A program made the translations under genes and the position numbers. From the IMG/VR virus record IMGVR_UViG_2199352024_000004, positions 1 to 39,231 of that record: 39,231 nucleotides of DNA. The stretch is one strand, 5' to 3'. Within the stretch, counting starts at the first letter, position 1. Each line of letters starts with the position of its first letter. This document shows positions 135 through 8,396 of the stretch, piece after piece. Below the pieces are notes generated by a model. It searched no databases. It saw nothing but the letters and a program-made list of their open reading frames with translations, and was not told the origin of the DNA. This DNA is from a virus.

Positions 135-171
135 TTTTTACACCTGCTTGCAAGGGTAGGTGTGCCCCTTG

Positions 172-244
172 TTGACCAAGACGGACTTGAACCGTCAACC
201 TAGAAGTTATGGGCTTCCCGCGCTAACCATTGCGCCATTGGTCA
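172..244 (-). tRNA. tRNA with anticodon CAT (Met or lysidine-type Ile)
   Basis: A complete 73-base cloverleaf reads on the minus strand. The acceptor stem is TGACCAA/TTGGTCA (7 of 7 pairs), the D stem GCGC/GCGC with an 8-base loop containing GG, the anticodon stem GGAAG/CTTCT (one G-U pair), the variable loop 5 bases, and the T stem GACGG/CCGTC with loop TTCAAGT. The anticodon loop is CCCATAA, giving CAT, so the tRNA is elongator Met, initiator Met or Ile2; the sequence alone does not decide. Two oddities are C instead of the near-universal T at position 33, and a U1-A72 first pair. CCA is not encoded. It lies just downstream of the structured stretch 245-756 on the same strand. Confidence 0.9.
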
Positions 245-1365: not shown

Positions 1366-1388
1366 GTCATTGCTCCTGAAAATAAAAC

Positions 1389-1499
1389 ATACGAGCCGCT
1401 ACAATTCACCTTTTTGTTGCCTGTCTTTCGTGTCGAAGGAAAGGGGCTGGTGTTTTGCAACGGCTCGTATATCAACAAAAAATCCCTTCAACCTTCGAC
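1389..1499 (-). promoter_or_regulatory. Pseudoknotted leader RNA ahead of the 757-1365 gene
   Basis: Three perfect stems cross one another. On the transcript they come in the order X (1499-1492), Y (1481-1473), Z (1470-1461), X' (1439-1432), Y' (1419-1411), Z' (1398-1389). X is GTCGAAGG with CCTTCGAC (8 pairs), Y is TTTTTGTTG with CAACAAAAA (9 pairs) and Z is ATACGAGCCG with CGGCTCGTAT (10 pairs). Z can extend inward by about ten more pairs, two of them G-U pairs that exist only on the minus-strand RNA. Z' is followed by GTTTTATTTT and then the Shine-Dalgarno AGGAG, so Z/Z' looks like a terminator that X/X' or Y/Y' could compete with. X begins at the predicted transcription start. Confidence 0.6.
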
Positions 1500-1505
1500 T
1501 TGCTT

Positions 1506-1534
1506 AGTTTATACCCGATGCCCCAGCCTGTCAA
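1506..1534 (-). promoter_or_regulatory. Sigma-70 promoter for the 757-1365 gene
   Basis: On the minus strand TTGACA (1534-1529) is separated by 17 bases from TAAACT (1511-1506), which predicts a start near 1499. An alternative -10, TATAAA, has a 15-base spacing. The -35 overlaps the stop codon of the upstream gene. The predicted start coincides with the first paired base of the leader structure. Confidence 0.65.
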
Positions 1535-1767
1535 GAGCCAGTTTGCGGCGCATCGTAAATAGACCACCCGCGCGTGTCCAGTTCCGGCACGTCGTAGCCA
1601 GGCAGATACCCGTTGATATAACACGCTGCTGGGCAGTCAATCGCGGCAAAGTCGCGGTTATCCTGCCACTGCTCCGGGGTCAGGGTCACGACCACAGCGG
1701 GTATCTCTGCACCGTGTAGCGGCTGGGGCGTGATTCCGCCGAACAAATTGTCATAGTAGGCGTTCAT
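1531..1767 (-). CDS. Hypothetical early protein, 78 aa
   Basis: A 78-residue acidic protein that I do not recognise. Its ATG overlaps the stop of the previous gene (ATGA), as expected for translational coupling in the leftward operon. The sequence contains a hydrophobic beta-like segment (IPAVVVTLTPEQW, about residues 22-34) followed by a proline-rich tail. There are no membrane segments. The -35 box of the next promoter lies across its stop codon, so transcription of this gene and of the 757-1365 unit is closely linked. Function unknown; the coding call rests on composition, start overlap and conserved spacing. Confidence 0.75.
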   Translation of the reverse strand: MNAYYDNLFGGITPQPLHGAEIPAVVVTLTPEQWQDNRDFAAIDCPAACYINGYLPGYDVPELDTRGWSIYDAPQTGS

Positions 1768-1871
1768 TGTCTAACGCTCCCGCACAGTCCACAGCACCAG
1801 CCGCCGCGTACCAGCGGGCCGTGTGGCGTTGATCGGTTGCAAACTGCGCAATACTTCGGTTGATTGCTCAT
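1764..1871 (-). CDS. Small zinc-ribbon protein, 35 aa
   Basis: A 35-residue protein starting at an ATG that overlaps the TGA of the upstream gene. Longer in-frame upstream starts exist but would run antiparallel through that gene's well-formed frame and are rejected. It holds two cysteine knuckles, C-A-V-C near residue 8 and C-C-G-L-C near residue 26, the pattern of a minimal zinc ribbon. Tiny zinc ribbons of this kind are common in phage early operons, where they may bind nucleic acid or host polymerase. No specific function can be assigned. Confidence 0.7.
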   Translation of the reverse strand: MSNQPKYCAVCNRSTPHGPLVRGGWCCGLCGSVRQ

Positions 1872-2179
1872 ATTGTATTTTCTCCAATCTTCGGCAATTT
1901 CACGCCATATTTGGCGCGGATTCTTTCCCTGCGGCTGGGCCAGTCTTCCGACGCGGCCCGGACGGATACGCCGTCCACCTTGCGCTTGTTGCGCTGCTGC
2001 TCGGATTTCGTCTCGCGCGGGATTGCGCCCAAGTCGGCGCGATACTTGCGGCTGCGGCAACTGACGGTGGCCCATGATTTCTGATGACCCGTCAGCGGGC
2101 GCTTGCATCCGCACTCGCACAGGCGCGTCTCGTTGGTCGTCGGCGTGTCTTGGTAGATGCGAAAGGGCAGGGCGGTCAT
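1868..2179 (-). CDS. Early protein with an N-terminal zinc-finger motif
   Basis: A 103-residue basic protein. The start chosen is the ATG overlapping the TGA of the methyltransferase-like gene. Residues 20-46 carry C-E-C-G-C followed by G-H-Q-K-x-W and S-C-R-S-R-K-Y-R, a compact metal-binding motif seen in several phage proteins of unknown role. The C-terminal half is lysine- and arginine-rich (SRRERIRAKYGVKLP), suggesting nucleic-acid binding. It sits between a DNA methyltransferase-like gene and a zinc ribbon, in line with a DNA-modification or regulatory group. Function is inferred only at this level. Confidence 0.75.
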   Translation of the reverse strand: MTALPFRIYQDTPTTNETRLCECGCKRPLTGHQKSWATVSCRSRKYRADLGAIPRETKSEQQRNKRKVDGVSVRAASEDWPSRRERIRAKYGVKLPKIGENTI

Positions 2180-2736
2180 AGTGCGCCCCACTGGATAGCC
2201 ATCGCAAGCGCTATTCCATCAAACGTCTTGCTCCGCTCTCGTTGCCGATCAGGTCCAGGGGGCATACGCCAAATACGCTGTTCGCGGCCTTCGACTTCAT
2301 CTGTGGGCACAAGACAGGGTAAGCCGTGCAACCAGAGCCACGTTTCTTTTGTCTCGCCGTGCCCAAATTGGTAGGGTTGGATTATCTGAGAACGTGGGCC
2401 AATGTATCTCTGCATTACGGTTTTAGGTTGTTCAAGCGCAACTTTATCGCAGTTCTCTTTGGCTTCTTTCCACATTTTGGAGCACAATGCCGCACCTTCT
2501 TGACGCAGTGGGCTATTCCAGTACCAGCGGTTCCCGCTCAGTGATGTGTAAGTGCAGGGCGGATGCAGGATTATCAAATCCCATCCACGCTTTATAACAT
2601 CGAACACGTTGCCTTGATAGTGCTGGGCCTTTGGATTTCGGCTGGGTTGTAAATCACAACTCCAGGCGTCCCACCCAATGCGCTCAAACGCGGCGCGGAC
2701 TGTATCGGATTCTTCGCAGCCAACGAGCATTTTCAT
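2176..2736 (-). CDS. DNA cytosine-C5-methyltransferase-like protein
   Basis: A 186-residue protein resembling the catalytic core of phage C5-cytosine methyltransferases. Residues 5-29 match the SAM-binding motif I (VGCEES followed by WDAWSCDL). Residues 58-61 are HPPC, the motif IV loop with the catalytic cysteine at 61. Residues 123-135 (QFGHGETKETWLW) are typical of a short phage group. The usual motif VI ENV is replaced by EQP (102-104), and no separate target-recognition domain is visible, so it is shorter than restriction-type enzymes. It may protect phage DNA from host restriction. The start is ATG overlapping the upstream TGA. Activity is uncertain because of EQP. Confidence 0.75.
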   Translation of the reverse strand: MKMLVGCEESDTVRAAFERIGWDAWSCDLQPSRNPKAQHYQGNVFDVIKRGWDLIILHPPCTYTSLSGNRWYWNSPLRQEGAALCSKMWKEAKENCDKVALEQPKTVMQRYIGPRSQIIQPYQFGHGETKETWLWLHGLPCLVPTDEVEGREQRIWRMPPGPDRQRERSKTFDGIALAMAIQWGAL

Positions 2737-2978
2737 GACTCACCTACACAGATATGATTCCATGCTATGGTATTTTTGCACTTAGGGCAAATTCTCCCGA
2801 TTTGTAATACAACAGGCGGCGCGGTGGCTGGTCTGATTTCGTAAGAAACTATGTAGGGAAACGAACCGCGCTGTATGTGTTGCTCCACAGCGCCCCGGCA
2901 AATTTCTTCCGTTTCGTACTGAACGGAAGTTACTATGTCCACCCCACCCGCGCATTTACAAACGGCTTCGTAACTCAT
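2733..2978 (-). CDS. Early protein with C-terminal zinc ribbon
   Basis: An 81-residue protein whose ATG overlaps the stop of the upstream gene; an upstream in-frame extension is rejected as non-native. It begins MSYEAVCKCAGG. The middle resembles a small beta domain (VQYETEEICRGAVEQHIQ). The last 20 residues carry C-P-K-C ... H-x-x-C, a zinc-ribbon pattern. It is followed by the methyltransferase-like gene with an ATGA overlap. Possibly a nucleic-acid-binding accessory protein; function not assigned. Confidence 0.75.
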   Translation of the reverse strand: MSYEAVCKCAGGVDIVTSVQYETEEICRGAVEQHIQRGSFPYIVSYEIRPATAPPVVLQIGRICPKCKNTIAWNHICVGES

Positions 2979-3163
2979 CGCGCCCACTCCTGCCCCAGCC
3001 CCACGAGCGCATCCGCGCCTTGCTGCGGCGTGATCTGCTTCGATGCCACGGCCTGCACGCAGTTCCACAGTACCTGGTCCCGCTCGGCCTCGATGCTGCC
3101 CGCCACGAGTTCGGCGGCGACGGCGGGATGGATGACGGTGATTTTGTAAGTTTCGTTTTTCAT
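2975..3163 (-). CDS. Hypothetical early protein, 62 aa
   Basis: A 62-residue protein beginning four bases after the helicase stop. It appears mostly helical (AAELVAGSIEAERDQVLWNCVQAVASKQI) with an acidic-amphipathic character. There are no metal-binding residues or membrane segments. Its position directly after the DnaB-like helicase could suit a small helicase-associated or loader-type protein, but nothing in the sequence proves this. Confidence 0.7.
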   Translation of the reverse strand: MKNETYKITVIHPAVAAELVAGSIEAERDQVLWNCVQAVASKQITPQQGADALVGLGQEWAR

Positions 3164-3164
3164 G

Positions 3165-4226
3165 TCAGTTCTCCACGTTGATATATTTCATTTCGGCTTG
3201 TAGGATGCGATTATAGGCCACGTCAAAACTAATCCAGCGTTCAAAGTTTGCTGGGCCTAACTTGCGCTTAAGAAAGGCTAGTTTCATTTGGTTGTAGCCT
3301 TCCACGCGGATAGATGAATCTTTGTGCGTAAGTTCGCCCTGCGCTCGGTACAATGACGGGCGCATGATCGAAATAACGCCGTCCGAGTCCTGCTCGATTG
3401 AGCTTGTCCATTGCCCGTCTTCCATCGTTGGGGTTGGGTCGTCACGCTGCCCAACTTCGCGGACGGCTTGAACGGCTACAATTGACCGCGTACCCAAACC
3501 GGGCATCATCGTTTTTACTGCACCTGAGTTTTCGGATACGCCGATAGTTTTGTTTTCCGCTTTGCTGTATGGCATCTTTTGCAGATAGTCAATAAATACA
3601 GAGTCGATTATCAAGCTATCTTCTTCTTGCCAGTTTTTTATTTGGTACAGCGCATCTTCAAGCATTGCCACTGATACAAGCGGCTTACGCCGCTTCAACT
3701 CCATACTATGACCAACCACCCAAAGCGGGTCTGCAATCGCGTTGGTATTGATGCGGCTTATTTCTTTCATCTGCGCATCCGAGACAATACCCATTGCCAT
3801 AGCGGTAACGCTCAATCGGTTCTGTTCTGACATACTAGCTGCAAGGTGGAAGGCGTTTAGCTCTTCTACGGGTTGCTCATACGTCACATACACAACCACC
3901 CGCCGCTTTGCTTCTTCATCACCAGCCGCCGCCATTGCGCGGATTATCCCGGCTCTTTCGCGGGCAGTTCGCATCAGAAAGGCCGTTTTGCCATTGCCGG
4001 GGCGGGCTATGACTGAGATCATCTCACCGGGGAGCACTGGCAAGAATCCGATGTCATTGGGGTTTTTCAGGTCAACAACCTTTTTCTGGTCATCGAAAGG
4101 GATATAAAGCGGCATACCACCGCCCAAGCCGCCTTCAATCGCGTTTTTGCGTCTGCGCTGTATATCCGCTTCGCTGATTCGGGCGCGGTCTTGCGGGCTA
4201 AAGATAATTGATTTTACGTCTGTCAT
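3165..4226 (-). CDS. DnaB-like replicative helicase (RecA-fold, SF4)
   Basis: A 353-residue protein with the RecA-type ATPase core of DnaB-family helicases. The Walker A loop is R-P-G-N-G-K-T at about 75-81, the catalytic glutamate lies in T-Y-E-Q-P (E117), and the Walker B region ends with I-D-Y-L-Q near 212-216, the hallmark of DnaB. The N-terminal helical domain of full-size DnaB (about 450 residues) is reduced to roughly 60 residues, as in several phage helicases. It would unwind DNA at the phage fork together with the primase at 5240-6241 and the DnaD-like protein just upstream. No clear Shine-Dalgarno is seen; the start lies three bases after the previous stop, so coupling is likely. 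Confidence 0.9.
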   Translation of the reverse strand: MTDVKSIIFSPQDRARISEADIQRRRKNAIEGGLGGGMPLYIPFDDQKKVVDLKNPNDIGFLPVLPGEMISVIARPGNGKTAFLMRTARERAGIIRAMAAAGDEEAKRRVVVYVTYEQPVEELNAFHLAASMSEQNRLSVTAMAMGIVSDAQMKEISRINTNAIADPLWVVGHSMELKRRKPLVSVAMLEDALYQIKNWQEEDSLIIDSVFIDYLQKMPYSKAENKTIGVSENSGAVKTMMPGLGTRSIVAVQAVREVGQRDDPTPTMEDGQWTSSIEQDSDGVISIMRPSLYRAQGELTHKDSSIRVEGYNQMKLAFLKRKLGPANFERWISFDVAYNRILQAEMKYINVEN

Positions 4227-4229
4227 GGG

Positions 4230-5036
4230 TTAATCTCGCATGGGTGGAAGGCGGTTTACAACGGCGGGTGTATACGCCTTTTTTGGAGCGAAGGATTTTG
4301 CGCGCTCTTCCTTTGTCAACGGGTAGCCGTCTTTCTCCCAACCACGCAGAATAGTGTCTGCGTATTTCTGGTTTTTGCCTTTCGCTTTATCCAAGGCAAG
4401 CATGATTTTTTCATCAGAGTGCATCGCCTTCCAAGTATCAATTAAATTCGATGTGTCTGCATTAGGGAACATTCCTATTGAGTTCATCTTTTCGATTATG
4501 GGGTCTGTGTATATATTTCTGGTTAATTCTGGTTGTGCAGATTTTACCGTGTTCACTGATACAGTTTCTTCAAAAACTGATACAGTTTGTATGGGTGTAT
4601 CAGTTTTTGATACAGGCTCTTTGTGATTGGCTGAGACGAAATCAGTCACGCGGTAAATAGTCCGCTTTGTGCCGTGCCGCGTGACTGAGAGTAGATTATA
4701 TTTATTCTCCAACCGATCAACTGCATCTCTGACAGTATTGATTGCTAAGTCCGTATCTTCTGCTGTTTTACGCAGTCCGGGGTAAGCGGTCTCTGATATG
4801 CGATTGATTGATAGCGCAATGTAAAGCCACACCTTCAGGGCAGTTGCGTCAAGTTCTTTCAGTTCCGATTTAAAGTTCGTCGAAACCTTCACGAACGCGG
4901 GGGATTCCGTCTCTACCATCTGTCTATTGCGCCGCTCAATAACTAACCGCGGGGCTTCAATTTCAATCGATGGTCTGTCGTACCCTTTTCCAACCATTTC
5001 TTTCATGTCTGCCAAGTAATCCGCTTGATCTTCCAC
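4230..5036 (-). CDS. DnaD-like phage replication protein with N-terminal winged helix
   Basis: A 268-residue protein. GTG at 5036 is chosen because AGGAGG lies five bases upstream; a longer ATG frame would start inside the terminator-like leader. Residues about 45-140 form a winged-helix domain (LDATALKVWLYIALSIN, then a recognition helix around TAEDTDLAINTVRDAVDRLE). A linker with three short TxSV repeats follows. Residues about 190-240 (IEKMNSIGMF ... ADTILRGWEKDGYP) match the DnaD/replisome-organiser C-terminal domain. Such proteins recognise the origin and help load the helicase, encoded next. Expression should depend on the promoter and leader at 5037-5231. Confidence 0.8.
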   Translation of the reverse strand: MEDQADYLADMKEMVGKGYDRPSIEIEAPRLVIERRNRQMVETESPAFVKVSTNFKSELKELDATALKVWLYIALSINRISETAYPGLRKTAEDTDLAINTVRDAVDRLENKYNLLSVTRHGTKRTIYRVTDFVSANHKEPVSKTDTPIQTVSVFEETVSVNTVKSAQPELTRNIYTDPIIEKMNSIGMFPNADTSNLIDTWKAMHSDEKIMLALDKAKGKNQKYADTILRGWEKDGYPLTKEERAKSFAPKKAYTPAVVNRLPPMRD

Positions 5037-5214
5037 GCCTTCCTCCTGAGAATAAAAAAAACACCGCCTGCAAGTCTTTATCTGGTCTTCGGCTCTCAGT
5101 AAGGACAAACTGCGGTGATTAGGCGCTCTTTACCGAAAACCAGATAAAAATTACAAACGGTGCTTATGATGTTATCCCTTACTGAGTTTTTGTTACTTTG
5201 TGGTAATCAGCCAC
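5037..5214 (-). promoter_or_regulatory. Pseudoknotted leader with terminator ahead of the DnaD-like gene
   Basis: Three stems cross in the order 1, 2, 3, 1', 2', 3'. Stem 1 is CTCAGTAAGG/CCTTACTGAG (5177-5186 with 5095-5104, 10 pairs). Stem 2 is TTTATCTGGT plus TTCGG against CCGAA plus ACCAGATAAA (5133-5148 with 5077-5092, 15 pairs and one mismatch). Stem 3 is CACCGC/GCGGTG (5112-5117 with 5062-5067), followed at once by eight Ts, an intrinsic-terminator signature with a long loop. Forming stem 1 or 2 constrains stem 3, so the layout suits transcription attenuation. A further hairpin CTTTGTGG/CCACAAAG (5196-5218) straddles the predicted start and may instead be a DNA operator. Confidence 0.65.
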
Positions 5215-5220
5215 AAAGAT

Positions 5221-5231
5221 ATTCTACCACA
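5221..5231 (-). promoter_or_regulatory. Extended -10 promoter for the DnaD-like gene
   Basis: The minus strand reads TGTGGTAGAAT, an extended -10 (TG-G-TAGAAT), predicting a start near 5214. The -35 region is poor (TGGTTA at an 18-base spacing). The same TGTGGTA-AAT form occurs in the promoter at 8349-8357, suggesting a shared promoter class. It lies just downstream of the primase start direction, within the 5037-5239 gap. Confidence 0.55.
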
Positions 5232-5239
5232 AAATCTAA

Positions 5240-6241
5240 TTATCTAACCATTCGCGCCGTCTTCAAAAGCGATTGTGCCCACTGTTTTGACAGGCCATAC
5301 TCGACAATCGCATCGTCCACTTTGTGAGACAATGCAATCACGCCAGCCCCACCACATGCGCGGGCAAACTCGCACGCTTCTTTTTCGCTGCCGGGGTCAA
5401 AGCCTATAAATACTTTGTGCCCCTTTGCCCGCTCTGCCAGTTTGCGCCATTGGTTTTTACCAGCCAACCCGAAAACCTGTAAGTCTGGCATGTTCATAGT
5501 TGCAAAAAGCGTAGCGGCTTTGAATTCGCCTTCCCAGAACAGAATCCGCTCTGTGTTCCACCCAATGTCAGGATCACACATAAATGGATACGTGGGCAGT
5601 CCGTAATTCTGCGGGCGGTACTTATCGGCTGGGTCAATAGGGTTTAATAAGCGGTGGCGTATGTTCTTGATCTGCCAGCCGGTATCGAATATTGGGATTG
5701 TCATTGTAGCGGTAGTAAGTTTTCCCTGTTTTGTCAGGGCTTGAAAGGCTGGGTTATACCCAAACTTCCAAAGGTTCTGCCATTCGTCGGCTATTCCCCT
5801 TTGCCGATAATACGAGCGGATTGAGTTTGTCAGGTTGGCGTGATACTCTTCCCATGCTTGCGCCTGTGATAAGTCTCTCACCGCTTCGTCGTATTCGCGT
5901 TGTTTCTCTTCGAGCTCGGCCTTGGTCTGTATGACCCTGGCCTCTGCCATTTTGCGGGCTTCTTCTGGCGTGATGCGATTTCCGCCGCCCAAATATTCGA
6001 CGGCTTGAACGAATCCAATACCCTGCTGGGCCATCACAAAAGCGATAACGTCACCACTGCCACAATCGCCGCTGAAACACTTCCAACGCTTGCCGTCGTC
6101 GTAGATGGCGAAGGCGTTTATATCCTTGCCGTTGTGGATGGGGCAAGCGCATCGAAATTCATGCCCTGCGCGGTGGGTTGGGTGGTTTTTTAGCACGTCC
6201 ATGATGGAGATGCTTTGTTTGATAGTATCTGTGTCGATCAT
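5240..6241 (-). CDS. DNA primase with CHC2 zinc finger and TOPRIM-like domain
   Basis: A 333-residue primase that would make RNA primers at the phage fork. The CHC2 zinc finger is complete: C33, H36, C55 and C60 (C-P-I-H ... C-F-S-G-D-C). A helical linker with a likely coiled coil follows (about 92-130). The catalytic TOPRIM region has the glutamate in W-E-G-E-F (E237) and a D-P-G turn (282-284) in place of the usual DxD, so metal binding may differ. The start has AAGGA nine bases upstream. No helicase domain is fused; the partner helicase is encoded at 3165-4226. Confidence 0.88.
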   Translation of the reverse strand: MIDTDTIKQSISIMDVLKNHPTHRAGHEFRCACPIHNGKDINAFAIYDDGKRWKCFSGDCGSGDVIAFVMAQQGIGFVQAVEYLGGGNRITPEEARKMAEARVIQTKAELEEKQREYDEAVRDLSQAQAWEEYHANLTNSIRSYYRQRGIADEWQNLWKFGYNPAFQALTKQGKLTTATMTIPIFDTGWQIKNIRHRLLNPIDPADKYRPQNYGLPTYPFMCDPDIGWNTERILFWEGEFKAATLFATMNMPDLQVFGLAGKNQWRKLAERAKGHKVFIGFDPGSEKEACEFARACGGAGVIALSHKVDDAIVEYGLSKQWAQSLLKTARMVR

Positions 6242-6243
6242 GG

Positions 6244-6453
6244 CTAAAATTCCTTGCCCGTTCCAAGTCTAACGTATAAATCCATCCGCCGCGCCATCGT
6301 ATCAAGACCGACGCGGATACCTTGCACCCAGTCTGTGTCCATGCGACAATCCACGCGGCGCATTGCAGAACGTAATGCCATAAGATCGGTTGCCAGCAAG
6401 CGCCGAACATCCGCGTTTTTAATATCTGCATGTGTATGCCTATTTGTAACCAT
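6244..6453 (-). CDS. Hypothetical early protein, 69 aa
   Basis: A 69-residue basic protein overlapping the 3' end of the preceding gene by 14 bases and ending three bases before the primase. It is predicted mostly helical, with many arginines (RRLLATDLMALRSAMRRVD), and could bind nucleic acid, but no family is recognised. It belongs to the promoter unit that starts at 6791-6819. Confidence 0.7.
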   Translation of the reverse strand: MVTNRHTHADIKNADVRRLLATDLMALRSAMRRVDCRMDTDWVQGIRVGLDTMARRMDLYVRLGTGKEF

Positions 6454-6637
6454 TACTCAACAACCTTTCGGCTAATCTCATAGCGTTAGCCGTGCTATTT
6501 TCACGAAACCCGAAACGGTTCAGCAGTGCCATCAAAATATAGTGTTCACCCGTTGCGCCGATGTTGTCACCGGGCGCGGGTGTCTTTTCGTACTGTGTTT
6601 GTAGTTCGTAATATTCGGACTGTGATAGTTTACGCAT
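6440..6637 (-). CDS. Hypothetical early protein, 65 aa
   Basis: A 65-residue protein, first gene of the unit behind the pseudoknotted leader at 6659-6784. It is probably helical (SQSEYYELQTQYEKTP, then ALLNRFGFRENSTANAMRLAERLL). The only Shine-Dalgarno-like sequence, AAGGAAG, is about 13 bases before ATG and overlaps a small CACT/AGTG hairpin ahead of a T-run, so ribosome access may be controlled. The function is unknown. Confidence 0.7.
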   Translation of the reverse strand: MRKLSQSEYYELQTQYEKTPAPGDNIGATGEHYILMALLNRFGFRENSTANAMRLAERLLSNGYK

Positions 6638-6784
6638 AAATAAAAAATCACTTCCTTGTGAGTGTCGATCTGTCGCTCTGGTTGGCTTGGCGGCCCCGCG
6701 AAGAAACGGGAAAGCTAAACAGAAACGACACTCAGAAAAAAGCGATTCGTTTTCTTCGGCCCGCCGCCAAACGGGTTAAGTTGT
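6638..6784 (-). promoter_or_regulatory. Pseudoknotted leader ahead of the 6440-6637 gene
   Basis: On the transcript the paired segments run B1, B2, C, A, B2', B1', C', A'. B1 is TTGGCGGC/GCCGCCAA (6763-6770 with 6687-6694). B2 is CGAAGAAAACG/CGTTTCTTCG (6748-6758 with 6699-6708, one bulge). C is TCGCT/AGCGA (6741-6745 with 6673-6677). A is TGAGTGTCG/CGACACTCA (6726-6734 with 6659-6667) and extends with TCTGT/ACAGA. The nested B stems therefore cross A and C. A' is followed by a short hairpin and ATTTTTTATTT just before the ATG. The structure could act as an attenuator or hide the weak ribosome site. Confidence 0.6.
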
Positions 6785-6790
6785 ACGTCA

Positions 6791-6819
6791 ATATTACTCC
6801 ATGCTCTTTTACGTGTCAA
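6791..6819 (-). promoter_or_regulatory. Near-consensus sigma-70 promoter
   Basis: TTGACA (6819-6814) and TAATAT (6796-6791) are spaced by exactly 17 bases on the minus strand, predicting a start near 6784. It is one of the best promoters in the window. It drives the unit 6637-5240 (two small proteins and the primase) through the structured leader. Confidence 0.8.
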
Positions 6820-6822
6820 GTA

Positions 6823-7095
6823 TCAGTTTGGGTTGTTGAAGCGCAAGAATATAATAGCTTCGATTTCGTCCAACGTTGCGCCTTCCATGACATGGACACC
6901 ACATACAGCCATGATAATATATCGCGTCTTTCCTTTTGGTGCGCCGAATTTCTGTGAATCATCTGGCGCAAAAATATCACGGTTCTTTGTGGCTCGTCCG
7001 CATAAAATACATGGTTCGTGATGCTTTGCGGATTCTAGCATTGCGTCAATAACCCGCTTTGCGTCTATTTCTCCCGGTGTCAGTTTATTTGCCAT
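6823..7095 (-). CDS. Hypothetical early protein with CxxC motif
   Basis: A 90-residue protein. Residues 29-32 are C-I-L-C, preceded by HH and followed later by C-G-V-H-V, so a zinc-binding fold is likely. The C-terminal part is hydrophobic-helical. A 16-codon frame (7135 down to 7085, beginning MSEQGAYS) overlaps both the stop of the preceding gene and the start of this one, and may serve as a coupling peptide. The promoter of the next unit begins four bases upstream of this gene's stop, on the same strand. The function is unknown. Confidence 0.7.
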   Translation of the reverse strand: MANKLTPGEIDAKRVIDAMLESAKHHEPCILCGRATKNRDIFAPDDSQKFGAPKGKTRYIIMAVCGVHVMEGATLDEIEAIIFLRFNNPN

Positions 7096-7129
7096 GCGTC
7101 ACCATCCGCTGAATACGCGCCCTGTTCGC

Positions 7130-7384
7130 TCATTGCGGCACCTTTTCAATCGCGCTGTAATCTTCCGCGATGGTTCCCTTGCAGCGAGAGCACCAGAAAG
7201 ATTCGTCAAATCCATGTCGACACGGGCCTTTCTTTACGTCCGGATCATCGGGCGGATACTTTTCGATAAGTTCAAGCATGGCGGCCTTGTATGATTCGTC
7301 ATACACTTTTCCGACGATCTTGCAGAATGACCGTGCCGCTTCATCGGCGGCTTGGTTCAAGTCGTTCTGTGTCGGCCCGCTCAT
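7130..7384 (-). CDS. Early protein with zinc-binding C-terminus
   Basis: An 84-residue acidic protein. Its N-terminal half is helical (NDLNQAADEAARSFCKIVG). Residues about 55-69 carry C-R-H-G and C-S-R-C, a likely zinc site of the form CxH...CxxC. The ATG overlaps the stop of the upstream gene. No known family is recognised. Confidence 0.72.
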   Translation of the reverse strand: MSGPTQNDLNQAADEAARSFCKIVGKVYDESYKAAMLELIEKYPPDDPDVKKGPCRHGFDESFWCSRCKGTIAEDYSAIEKVPQ

Positions 7385-7758
7385 TGCGGCACCTGCTGAG
7401 CGGGTTTGACGGGTGGCACTACTTCACATTTCATCGCCAATCCCGTAGACAAAACGCGGCTCATTTTTTTTGTATACAAACGCGGTAAATCTCTTGCGCG
7501 TGTGACAAAAAAGTAAGAATCATATTTAATGGTTTGGTCTGTGTCTAGCCAATAGGTATATATTTCTCCGGCTAAAGGAGTCTTGAACATCCCGAGGCGC
7601 ACGGTTGCGACAATCTCAATGTCAGAATAGGTGTATGATCCGCTTTTCCCGCGTCTCGCTGGTCGCTCTCCGGTGACCTCGTTTGACACAAAACGCACAA
7701 CATCGCCCGGCTTTATTTCTGCTCCGTTTTTATCGACAAACACCGCCTGCCCGCTCAT
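7381..7758 (-). CDS. YopX-like or SH3-like early protein
   Basis: A 125-residue protein beginning MSGQAVFVDKNGAEIKPGDV. The D-x-N-G-x-E-I-x-x-G-D-V-V pattern at 9-21 is the small beta-barrel opening shared by YopX-type and other SH3-like phage proteins. Hydrophobic and aromatic strands follow (YTYWLDTDQTI, YDSYFFVTRAR). The start overlaps the upstream stop by ATGA. The role is unknown; binding to nucleic acid or protein is possible. Confidence 0.72.
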   Translation of the reverse strand: MSGQAVFVDKNGAEIKPGDVVRFVSNEVTGERPARRGKSGSYTYSDIEIVATVRLGMFKTPLAGEIYTYWLDTDQTIKYDSYFFVTRARDLPRLYTKKMSRVLSTGLAMKCEVVPPVKPAQQVPQ

Positions 7759-8168
7759 TGCGCGGCCTCGGTGGGGGTGGGCTCAACGAAGCGATACAGC
7801 ATCATGCAAGCAAATTCTTTTCCGTCTTTCACCTTGAATGAGTCTTGTGATCCGTAATAATGCGAAGGAATCCAGCCGTTAACCGGGTTGGCTTCGTAAG
7901 TTCTGCGGGCTACTTCTTTGCGCTCTTTGTAGGTCGTGCCGTTCGGTATCTCAAACTCATGCCAAAGATGCTCTCTCGCCTTCCCCATGTGGTCAAGGCT
8001 TTGAGTAAGGCGCGTAATTTCGCATGGCGTATTACCGAAACGCGCAAGAGCCATACTTAATTGATCTGGGGTCAATTTCACTTCAACAATATCTTCCCCA
8101 GATAGTTTGTCGGCCACTCTTATCACTGTGTAATCTCTGTTGATAAATATCTCTACTTCACCTTGCAT
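7755..8168 (-). CDS. Hypothetical early protein, 137 aa
   Basis: A 137-residue protein starting at the ATG with AAGGAG eight bases upstream; an in-frame TTG nine codons earlier is rejected. The first 60 residues form a likely beta domain (VEIFINRDYTVIRVADKL ... LTPDQLSMALARFG). Residues 70-110 are basic-helical with H-L-W-H and YKERKEVARR. It is the first gene behind the leader at 8194-8342. No known fold is recognised. Confidence 0.78.
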   Translation of the reverse strand: MQGEVEIFINRDYTVIRVADKLSGEDIVEVKLTPDQLSMALARFGNTPCEITRLTQSLDHMGKAREHLWHEFEIPNGTTYKERKEVARRTYEANPVNGWIPSHYYGSQDSFKVKDGKEFACMMLYRFVEPTPTEAAQ

Positions 8169-8193
8169 AATTGACTCCTTGTTTTTAGGCAAC

Positions 8194-8342
8194 AAAAAAC
8201 ACGCTTGCTTACTTTGAAAAAATGGCCGGTACGGTCAGAGTGACGGCCTGCAAGCCACCGCCCAAACCATTTTTTCAAAATCGACAAACGTGTTTTTTTG
8301 AGACATACTCTGTTCGTGTCACGGGTTGCAGCCCGTCTTACA
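8194..8342 (-). promoter_or_regulatory. Pseudoknotted leader with T-run ahead of the 7755-8168 gene
   Basis: Paired segments on the transcript run V, X, Z, Y, V', X', Y', Z'. V is GACGGGCTGCA/TGCAGGCCGTC (8327-8337 with 8242-8252, 10 of 11). X is CAGAGT/ACTCTG (8307-8312 with 8236-8241). Z is AAAAAACACG/CGTGTTTTTT (8289-8298 with 8194-8203). Y is TTTGAAAAAATGG with CCATTTTTTCAAA (8267-8279 with 8213-8225, 13 perfect pairs) nested in Z. V and X cross Z and Y. Z' itself ends in a run of six Ts, so Z/Z' may terminate transcription. A local ACGGG/CCCGT hairpin (8322-8337) competes with V. Confidence 0.62.
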
Positions 8343-8348
8343 AAGACA

Positions 8349-8379
8349 ATTGTACCACACTTCCGCCATTTTGCGCCAA
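8349..8379 (-). promoter_or_regulatory. Extended -10 promoter
   Basis: The minus strand reads TGTGGTACAAT, an extended -10 element (TACAAT at 8354-8349), with a weak TTGGCG -35 at 8379-8374 and a long 19-base spacing. The start is predicted near 8342, at the 5' end of the leader. It resembles the promoter at 5221-5231. Confidence 0.55.
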
Positions 8380-8396
8380 TCCCGGTGCGTGGCGGG

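Follow-up and report, generated by a model that had tools for sequence, protein, structure and literature searches.

Leader RNAs with interleaved complementary arms head early operons in a group of uncultured phages and may act as co-transcriptional folding switches

The window analyzed here, i.e., the whole 39,231-base IMG/VR virus record IMGVR_UViG_2199352024_000004, carries on its minus strand an early arm with four leaders, designated W1–W4, in which long complementary segments follow one another in crossing order (a b c … a′ b′ c′) ahead of a gene. A preliminary description of the window had presented them as a family of promoter-headed, pseudoknotted leader RNAs whose architecture repeats while the stem sequences differ, and had taken this as a sign of selection on structure; the repeated architecture, with unrelated stem sequences and selected as RNA structure, is upheld here, and it extends far beyond the window, since the same layout heads single genes in about eleven other IMG/VR records of uncultured phages. 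Based on modeled folds, we propose, with confidence that is evenly balanced, that the 5′ leaders could serve the early phage operons behind them as cis-acting, co-transcriptional on/off folding switches.

The arms reported for the four leaders are confirmed by a listing of the stems, and the folds exceed dinucleotide-shuffled sequence, a comparison that the preliminary description had itself named and that comes out in favor of the finding: the z scores of the minimum free energy are −3.8, −5.4, −4.0, and −4.9 for W1 to W4, respectively, and the observed energy is reached by 0/300 shuffles in each case. The crossing order claimed for every leader stands beyond chance in W1, W2, and W3, but is weak in W4. 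In W1 (1366–1500), which follows the order a b c a′ b′ c′, arm a GTCGAAGG (1492–1499) lies at the transcription start site (TSS) and pairs with a′ CCTTCGAC (1439–1432), arm b TTTTTTGTTG (1473–1482) pairs with b′ CAACAAAAAG (1419–1410), and arm c (1455–1473) forms 19 base pairs (bp) with c′ (1404–1386); two crossing stems are present, the best single one being marginal given the hairpin (p ~0.04–0.09). The other three follow the order a c a′ c′, where arm c in our naming comprises segments b and c of the preliminary description. In W2 (5037–5216), arm a CTCAGTAAGGG (5176–5186) and a′ TCCTTACTGAG (5095–5105) form a crossing stem with p ~0.002–0.005 given the hairpin, which consists of arm c (5132–5165) and c′ (5093–5059) in two stacked stretches of 15 and 19 bp. 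In W3 (6638–6786), both helices are built of two stretches, co-linear in the case of arm a (6772–6763 and 6758–6751, with a′ at 6706–6699 and 6694–6685), and arm c (6748–6736 and 6734–6726) is matched by c′ (6667–6659 and 6657–6645); here, p is ~0.02–0.03 for one of the two co-linear crossing stems. W4 (8169–8344) is a weak member of the family, which shares the interrupted hairpin of 32 bp in all (c at 8298–8284 and 8281–8265, c′ at 8227–8211 and 8208–8194) and the U-run but not a proven crossing helix, as its proposed arm a, CAGAGT (8307–8312, pairing with ACTCTG at 8241–8236), is a weak 6-bp stem that does not rise above chance in the shuffle test.

For the wider survey, relatives of the window's large terminase subunit (TerL) were collected from IMG/VR and the larger records were fetched; beyond TerL, these have little in common with the window. 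A genome-wide energy scan for crossing stems was swamped by chance stems of GC-rich coding DNA and was therefore replaced by a Watson–Crick-weighted score, which seeks long helices with one or two crossing arms upstream, and by promoter anchoring. The reversed sequence was useless as a control because inverted repeats survive reversal, and a mirror control with arm a downstream picked up these very elements from the opposite strand and was thereby contaminated. The scan yielded sequence-unrelated leaders of the same build, namely L021 (with helices of 12, 10, and 19 bp), L033, L037, L047, L050a, L050b, L120, L127, and L045, of which the two L050 leaders and L120 share one record, G030; the shuffle p-values of this wider list are biased, the best place having been selected first, and it was used as a list only.

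As those leaders had been chosen for their structure, a further, blind test was anchored on sequence only, in which a sigma-70-like promoter had to be followed, outside open frames, by a start codon with a Shine–Dalgarno sequence (SD) 90–215 nucleotides (nt) downstream. Among TerL kin, 6/68 such promoter–gene pairs score at least 42, as compared with ~0.05 for shuffles, and W1 is recovered independently of its structure; among unrelated control phages, 0/25 pairs reach that score. Held-out phages, which were found later via the DnaB adjoining the L037 leader and were used for no parameter, give 8/22, and these eight positives comprise three new leaders (L294, L295, and L298) together with variants of the known L037 and L047 leaders. 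The scores are bimodal, with hardly any pair between 28 and 38. This settles that the leader family exists in the TerL/DnaB-kin phages and that the control phages have it rarely or not at all. GC-rich phage DNA does yield many energetic crossing stems by chance, and a motivated reader could pick complementarity from among them; against the blind and held-out promoter-anchored results and their bimodal scores, such an explanation is refuted for the family and retains a very slight probability, being possible for the single crossing stem of W4.

The resulting set of 16 leaders (W1–W4, L021, L033, L037, L045, L047, L050a, L050b, L120, L127, L294, L295, and L298) has almost no primary sequence in common. 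Leader-versus-leader blastn returned words of 15 nt or less, except for one 27-nt match of 85% between two leaders of one phage, and a search for a common motif returned U-runs and a single word, GGGCGCTTT, in three leaders; judged by sequence similarity, the leaders do not appear to share a common ancestry. At L058:8894–9003, inverted repeats are likewise interleaved (AGATCAAAAAGG/CCTTTTTGATCT with CGCTGATCTTGATT/AATCAAGATCAGCG); neither a clear promoter nor a clear start codon is seen there, and the element is not a leader of this family.

What the leaders share is the order of their arms, in that 42 of the 48 helix pairs cross and 6 nest, and the position of the last helix. In eight leaders (W1, W2, W4, L033, L047, L050b, L127, and L294) the last helix lies on a U-rich tract and the SD stands outside, further on, so that 8/16 contain the putative terminator arrangement of a stable hairpin followed directly by a U-tract between promoter and start codon. 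In seven others the last helix covers the SD, which lies in c′ in W3, L050a, L120, L045, and L295, and in L037 and L298 in an extra arm d′ that pairs with the hairpin loop and is invisible to nested folding. The output of L021 is ambiguous, the other 15/16 being terminator-like or SD-covering. Predicted folds place the SD in a stable helix ahead of an endonuclease gene, as in the type that sequesters the ribosome-binding site, for L050a, L120, and L295, and not for W1–W4. Within the window, c′ of W1 is followed by TTATTTT (1385–1379) and a free SD CAGGAG (1378–1373), c′ of W2 runs into a U-tract (5058–5051), and c′ of W4 ends in TTTTTT with a free SD AAGGAG after it, all three being terminator-like. 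The T-run-then-gene arrangement that had been described for the four thus fits these three but not W3, where the SD, AAGGAAG, lies within c′ and has a pairing probability of ~1 when the full-length leader is folded, and the T-run is the spacer between this helix-buried SD and the AUG. Attenuators and the expression platforms of riboswitches typically have terminator and SD-hiding outputs that can replace one another. Attenuation, one of the options offered in the preliminary description, is supported as a candidate.

Nested folding of the growing leaders gives, in most of them, a best structure with a:a′ until c′ has been made and with c:c′ thereafter. The early fold is accompanied by b:b′ or, in L050a and L120, by c*:c, formed directly between c and an upstream copy, c* (E −25.9 and −22.9, respectively). 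In 13 leaders, the mean z is −3.4 for the prefix that ends before c′ and −4.8 for the full length, and 12/13 prefixes are matched by at most 7/300 shuffles, L050b being the exception; this set was partly selected on structure and is not unbiased, and it supports two states without proving them. With a:a′ constrained (state 1), the final 45 nt are on average less paired in 11/11 leaders tested; much of this stretch is freed in most of them, but little in L021. According to a simple reach estimate of our own (2.8 Å per bp and 6.2 Å per nt), the linkers are too short for coexistence at full length in 12 of the 42 crossing pairs, distributed over 9/16 leaders and including at least one pair in each of the four window leaders, which in W4 concerns the weak arm a. 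The single pseudoknotted fold of the preliminary description therefore probably does not hold in the window: with linkers that are too short, and with truncated and full-length leaders taking different, both unusually stable, nested folds, the interleaving there is read mainly as mutual exclusion of two states. Two nested folds in nearly every leader probably fit alternative structures better than one fixed pseudoknot.

These observations also bear on a static explanation, in which a woven pseudoknot with a paired 5′ end would shield the mRNA, blocking 5′-to-3′ decay, Rho, or helicases in the manner of nuclease-resistant RNA. In 10/16 leaders, no more than ~15 nt separate the assumed start from the first paired arm, and in many of them arm a begins only a few bases from the TSS; most helix pairs cross, paired arms follow one another almost without gaps in the 3′ half of several leaders, and an architecture that is kept while sequence is not would suit a mechanical role. 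A shield, however, leaves the terminator-like or SD-covering last helix of 15/16 leaders unexplained and requires helices that the linkers of nine leaders cannot hold simultaneously, all four of the window included, and the threading of c′ would be hindered while the polymerase holds its 3′ end. We regard this explanation as unlikely.

In the proposed folding switch, the promoter-proximal arms (a, and often b) would pair with a′ and b′, both of which are made before the last arm c′. The helix a:a′, together with b:b′ or, in two leaders, the decoy c*:c, would form first and keep c from c′, thus opposing rather than helping c:c′; in this ON state, the polymerase would pass or ribosomes would load. 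Should c:c′ (or d:d′) win, transcription would stop or the SD would be hidden, which constitutes the OFF state. The crossing order would make the two states exclusive without sharing sequence, and therefore no primary sequence need be kept. The balance between them might be tipped by the speed of the polymerase, a phage or host protein, a helicase, or the loading of ribosomes. More tentatively, the conserved trait may be the topology itself, i.e., a sequence-independent, ligand-free switch in which every 3′ arm finds its 5′ partners in parallel (crossing) order. As the polymerase moves, helices would then exclude or thread each other, and the outcome would be either a relay timed from ON to OFF or an RNA that is truly woven; the crossing layout would serve a whole group of uncultured phages as a general off-control of replication and endonuclease genes. 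Several points weigh against the folding switch. More helices (b, e, and d) are present in several leaders than a two-state switch needs; with 42/48 pairs crossing, selection could act on the woven fold itself; full pseudoknots are within reach of the linkers in about half of the leaders; and the energy models used ignore both pseudoknots and kinetics. Furthermore, compensatory changes did not appear in the close pairs L283/L289 and L287/L285/L290, whose arms are almost unchanged, the changes being one U-A to U-G and one deletion beside a mismatch. For the window, close relatives were sought by TerL, DnaD, DnaB, and DNA similarity, which returned TerL matches of 45–67% identity only and none for the early genes.

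The genes behind the leaders are replication initiators in 5/16 cases (W2, L037, L047, L045, and L298), HNH-type endonucleases in 6/16 (L021, L033, L050b, L120, L294, and L295), and a Myb/DUF1064 nuclease in the case of L050a; W1, W3, W4, and L127 precede genes without recognised function, and none of W1–W4 stands before a recognised endonuclease. Identities are given by Pfam or PHROG matches for W2, L037, L047, L050a, L050b, and L033, with the HNH match of L050b below the Pfam cut-off, and by reading of the translations only for L021, L120, L045, L294, L295, and L298. A tie between leader and endonuclease gene was considered and rejected, since 79 other viral loci with orthologues of the L050 DUF1064 nuclease show no convincing interleaved leader; the trait follows the phage, not the gene.

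Exchange of the replication module is seen between records G019 and G012, in which the blocks of leader and initiator are unrelated (L037:11184–12043 with a DnaD-like initiator and L047:6834–7809 with an O-like one) while the flanks around them are ~90% identical and DnaB is 99% identical, and modules appear to have been exchanged at the promoter/leader edge. L283 and L289 (~4130–4260) carry a nearly identical leader of ~112 nt before different initiators, with all helical arms unchanged and several base differences in the promoter spacer, and this leader may represent a conserved joint. The swapping of leader and initiator as a block, as well as the retention of one leader before different initiators, would suit a DNA-level feature, in which the clustered inverted repeats are operators, parts of an origin, or recombination joints and the RNA structure is a by-product; many arms are, moreover, perfect repeats. 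The G-U pairs that the preliminary description considered valid on the RNA strand only do not separate the two possibilities sharply, since symmetric stem extensions of 13 leaders contain 12 G·U versus 5 A·C mismatches, an excess that leans to the mRNA strand without being decisive. Nevertheless, the elements span the TSS to the start codon and are without exception oriented as the gene is, and their last helix matches terminator or SD positions, which renders a purely DNA-level role very unlikely.

The occurrence of several leaders per phage, four in the window and three in G030, suggests co-regulation, and a phage-encoded RNA-binding protein, either repressor or antiterminator, could read the shape and drive the fold, a precedent being gp32, which binds the leader pseudoknot of T4 gene 32 (PMC3014915). 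Against such a target stand the lack of a common motif beyond the U-runs and the one word in three leaders, and the finding of no candidate protein common to the phages; the kin share little with the window beyond TerL. We hold this possibility to be distinctly unlikely.

Within the window, the promoter-headed units of the preliminary description are borne out for W1 and W3, which have the two best-scoring sigma-70 promoters of the minus strand, whereas in W2 and W4 a good −10 is combined with a poor −35. The W1 promoter, TTGACA-17-TAAACT (1534–1506; −35 at 1534–1529, −10 at 1511–1506, TSS at ~1499), has the best score of that strand, 14.1, and the gene behind the leader (757–1365) encodes 202 amino acids (aa) without recognised function. 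The W3 promoter, TTGACA-17-TAATAT (6791–6819; TSS at ~6784), scores 13.2 and leads to a gene of 65 aa (6440–6637) in an operon that continues to a primase (5240–6241). W4, with a −10 TACAAT (8354–8349) and a weak −35, precedes a gene of 137 aa (7755–8168), again without recognised function. W2 has a −10 TAGAAT (5226–5221) without a good −35 and is followed by a DnaD-like replication initiator with a GTG start (4230–5036) and next by a DnaB-like helicase (3165–4226); a DNA methyltransferase (phrog_757; 2176–2736, minus strand) lies in the same operon. Inside the DnaD-like gene, at 4555–4688, are direct repeats ACTGATACAGTTT (4555–4567 and 4576–4588), a 15-bp perfect inverted repeat (4570–4584/4596–4610), and another of 12–14 bp (4642–4688), an arrangement resembling the iterons of a replication origin embedded in the gene for the initiator. 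A tRNA-Met (CAT) is located near the record edge (171–244, minus strand). The only close cellular TerL matches are an Anaerolineae bacterium metagenome-assembled contig (L222; 51%) and Rubrobacter (47%); few matches were found in the class of the former, and its contig is without such a leader. The L222 match is a hint that the hosts of this phage group may be Chloroflexota.

If the folding switch is true, these leaders represent a class of RNA control that sequence or ordinary covariance models miss because only arm order is kept, and they open to experiment the question of whether termination or translation can be governed by topology and folding order alone, with neither ligand nor shared sequence. 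They would also supply ready-made parts with interchangeable terminator and SD-hiding outputs, and promoter anchoring offers a way of finding such leaders in other genomes.

In comparison with known systems, curated Rfam models at the gathering score detect only tRNA in the window and five kin loci, and a permissive Rfam search gave one sub-threshold chance hit; antisense immunity RNA of the C4/P4 CI type and HEARO-like RNA were considered and dropped, neither having an Rfam match. The preliminary description had known of no phage regulatory system in which several leaders share such a layout, and literature searches turned up none with several sequence-unrelated leaders in crossing order, and this points to a class of folding switch absent from the papers and RNA families that could be searched. 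P4 CI and P1 c4 are prophage leader RNAs with terminated and read-through forms. The same is true of IsrK of Gifsy-1 (PMC4825925). All three resemble the present leaders as early operon leaders with internal complementarity, alternative structures, and termination (predicted here), but they are trans-acting small RNAs with conserved sequences, whereas leaders of the same phage are unrelated here and have no Rfam match. In the homing endonuclease genes of T4 I-TevI, Aeh1 mobE, and T4 segB, single hairpins hide the SD and keep expression low (PMC3014915); likewise, seven of the 16 leaders stand before endonucleases and seven, not the same ones, cover the SD, but with several crossing helices, also before replication genes, and with a terminator version in addition. 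The T4 gene 32 pseudoknot, described in 2010 as perhaps the sole viral case of a pseudoknot in translational autoregulation (PMC3014915), is similar as a pseudoknot in a phage leader that controls expression; it is, however, one short H-type element with a protein ligand and coexisting helices, in contrast to the long helices and many sequence-unrelated copies described here. In the fluoride riboswitch, a pseudoknot competes with a terminator (PMC11077080), just as an early upstream fold would compete with a later intrinsic terminator here, and riboswitch-type attenuators likewise exist in both SD-hiding and terminator forms. Unlike that riboswitch, the present leaders are without a conserved aptamer, sequence, or Rfam match, and exclusion would be achieved mostly by crossing order rather than by shared bases. 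The leaders would belong with leader attenuation or sequestration, and topology as the conserved trait, which we put forward only as a possibility, would be categorically new among such systems.

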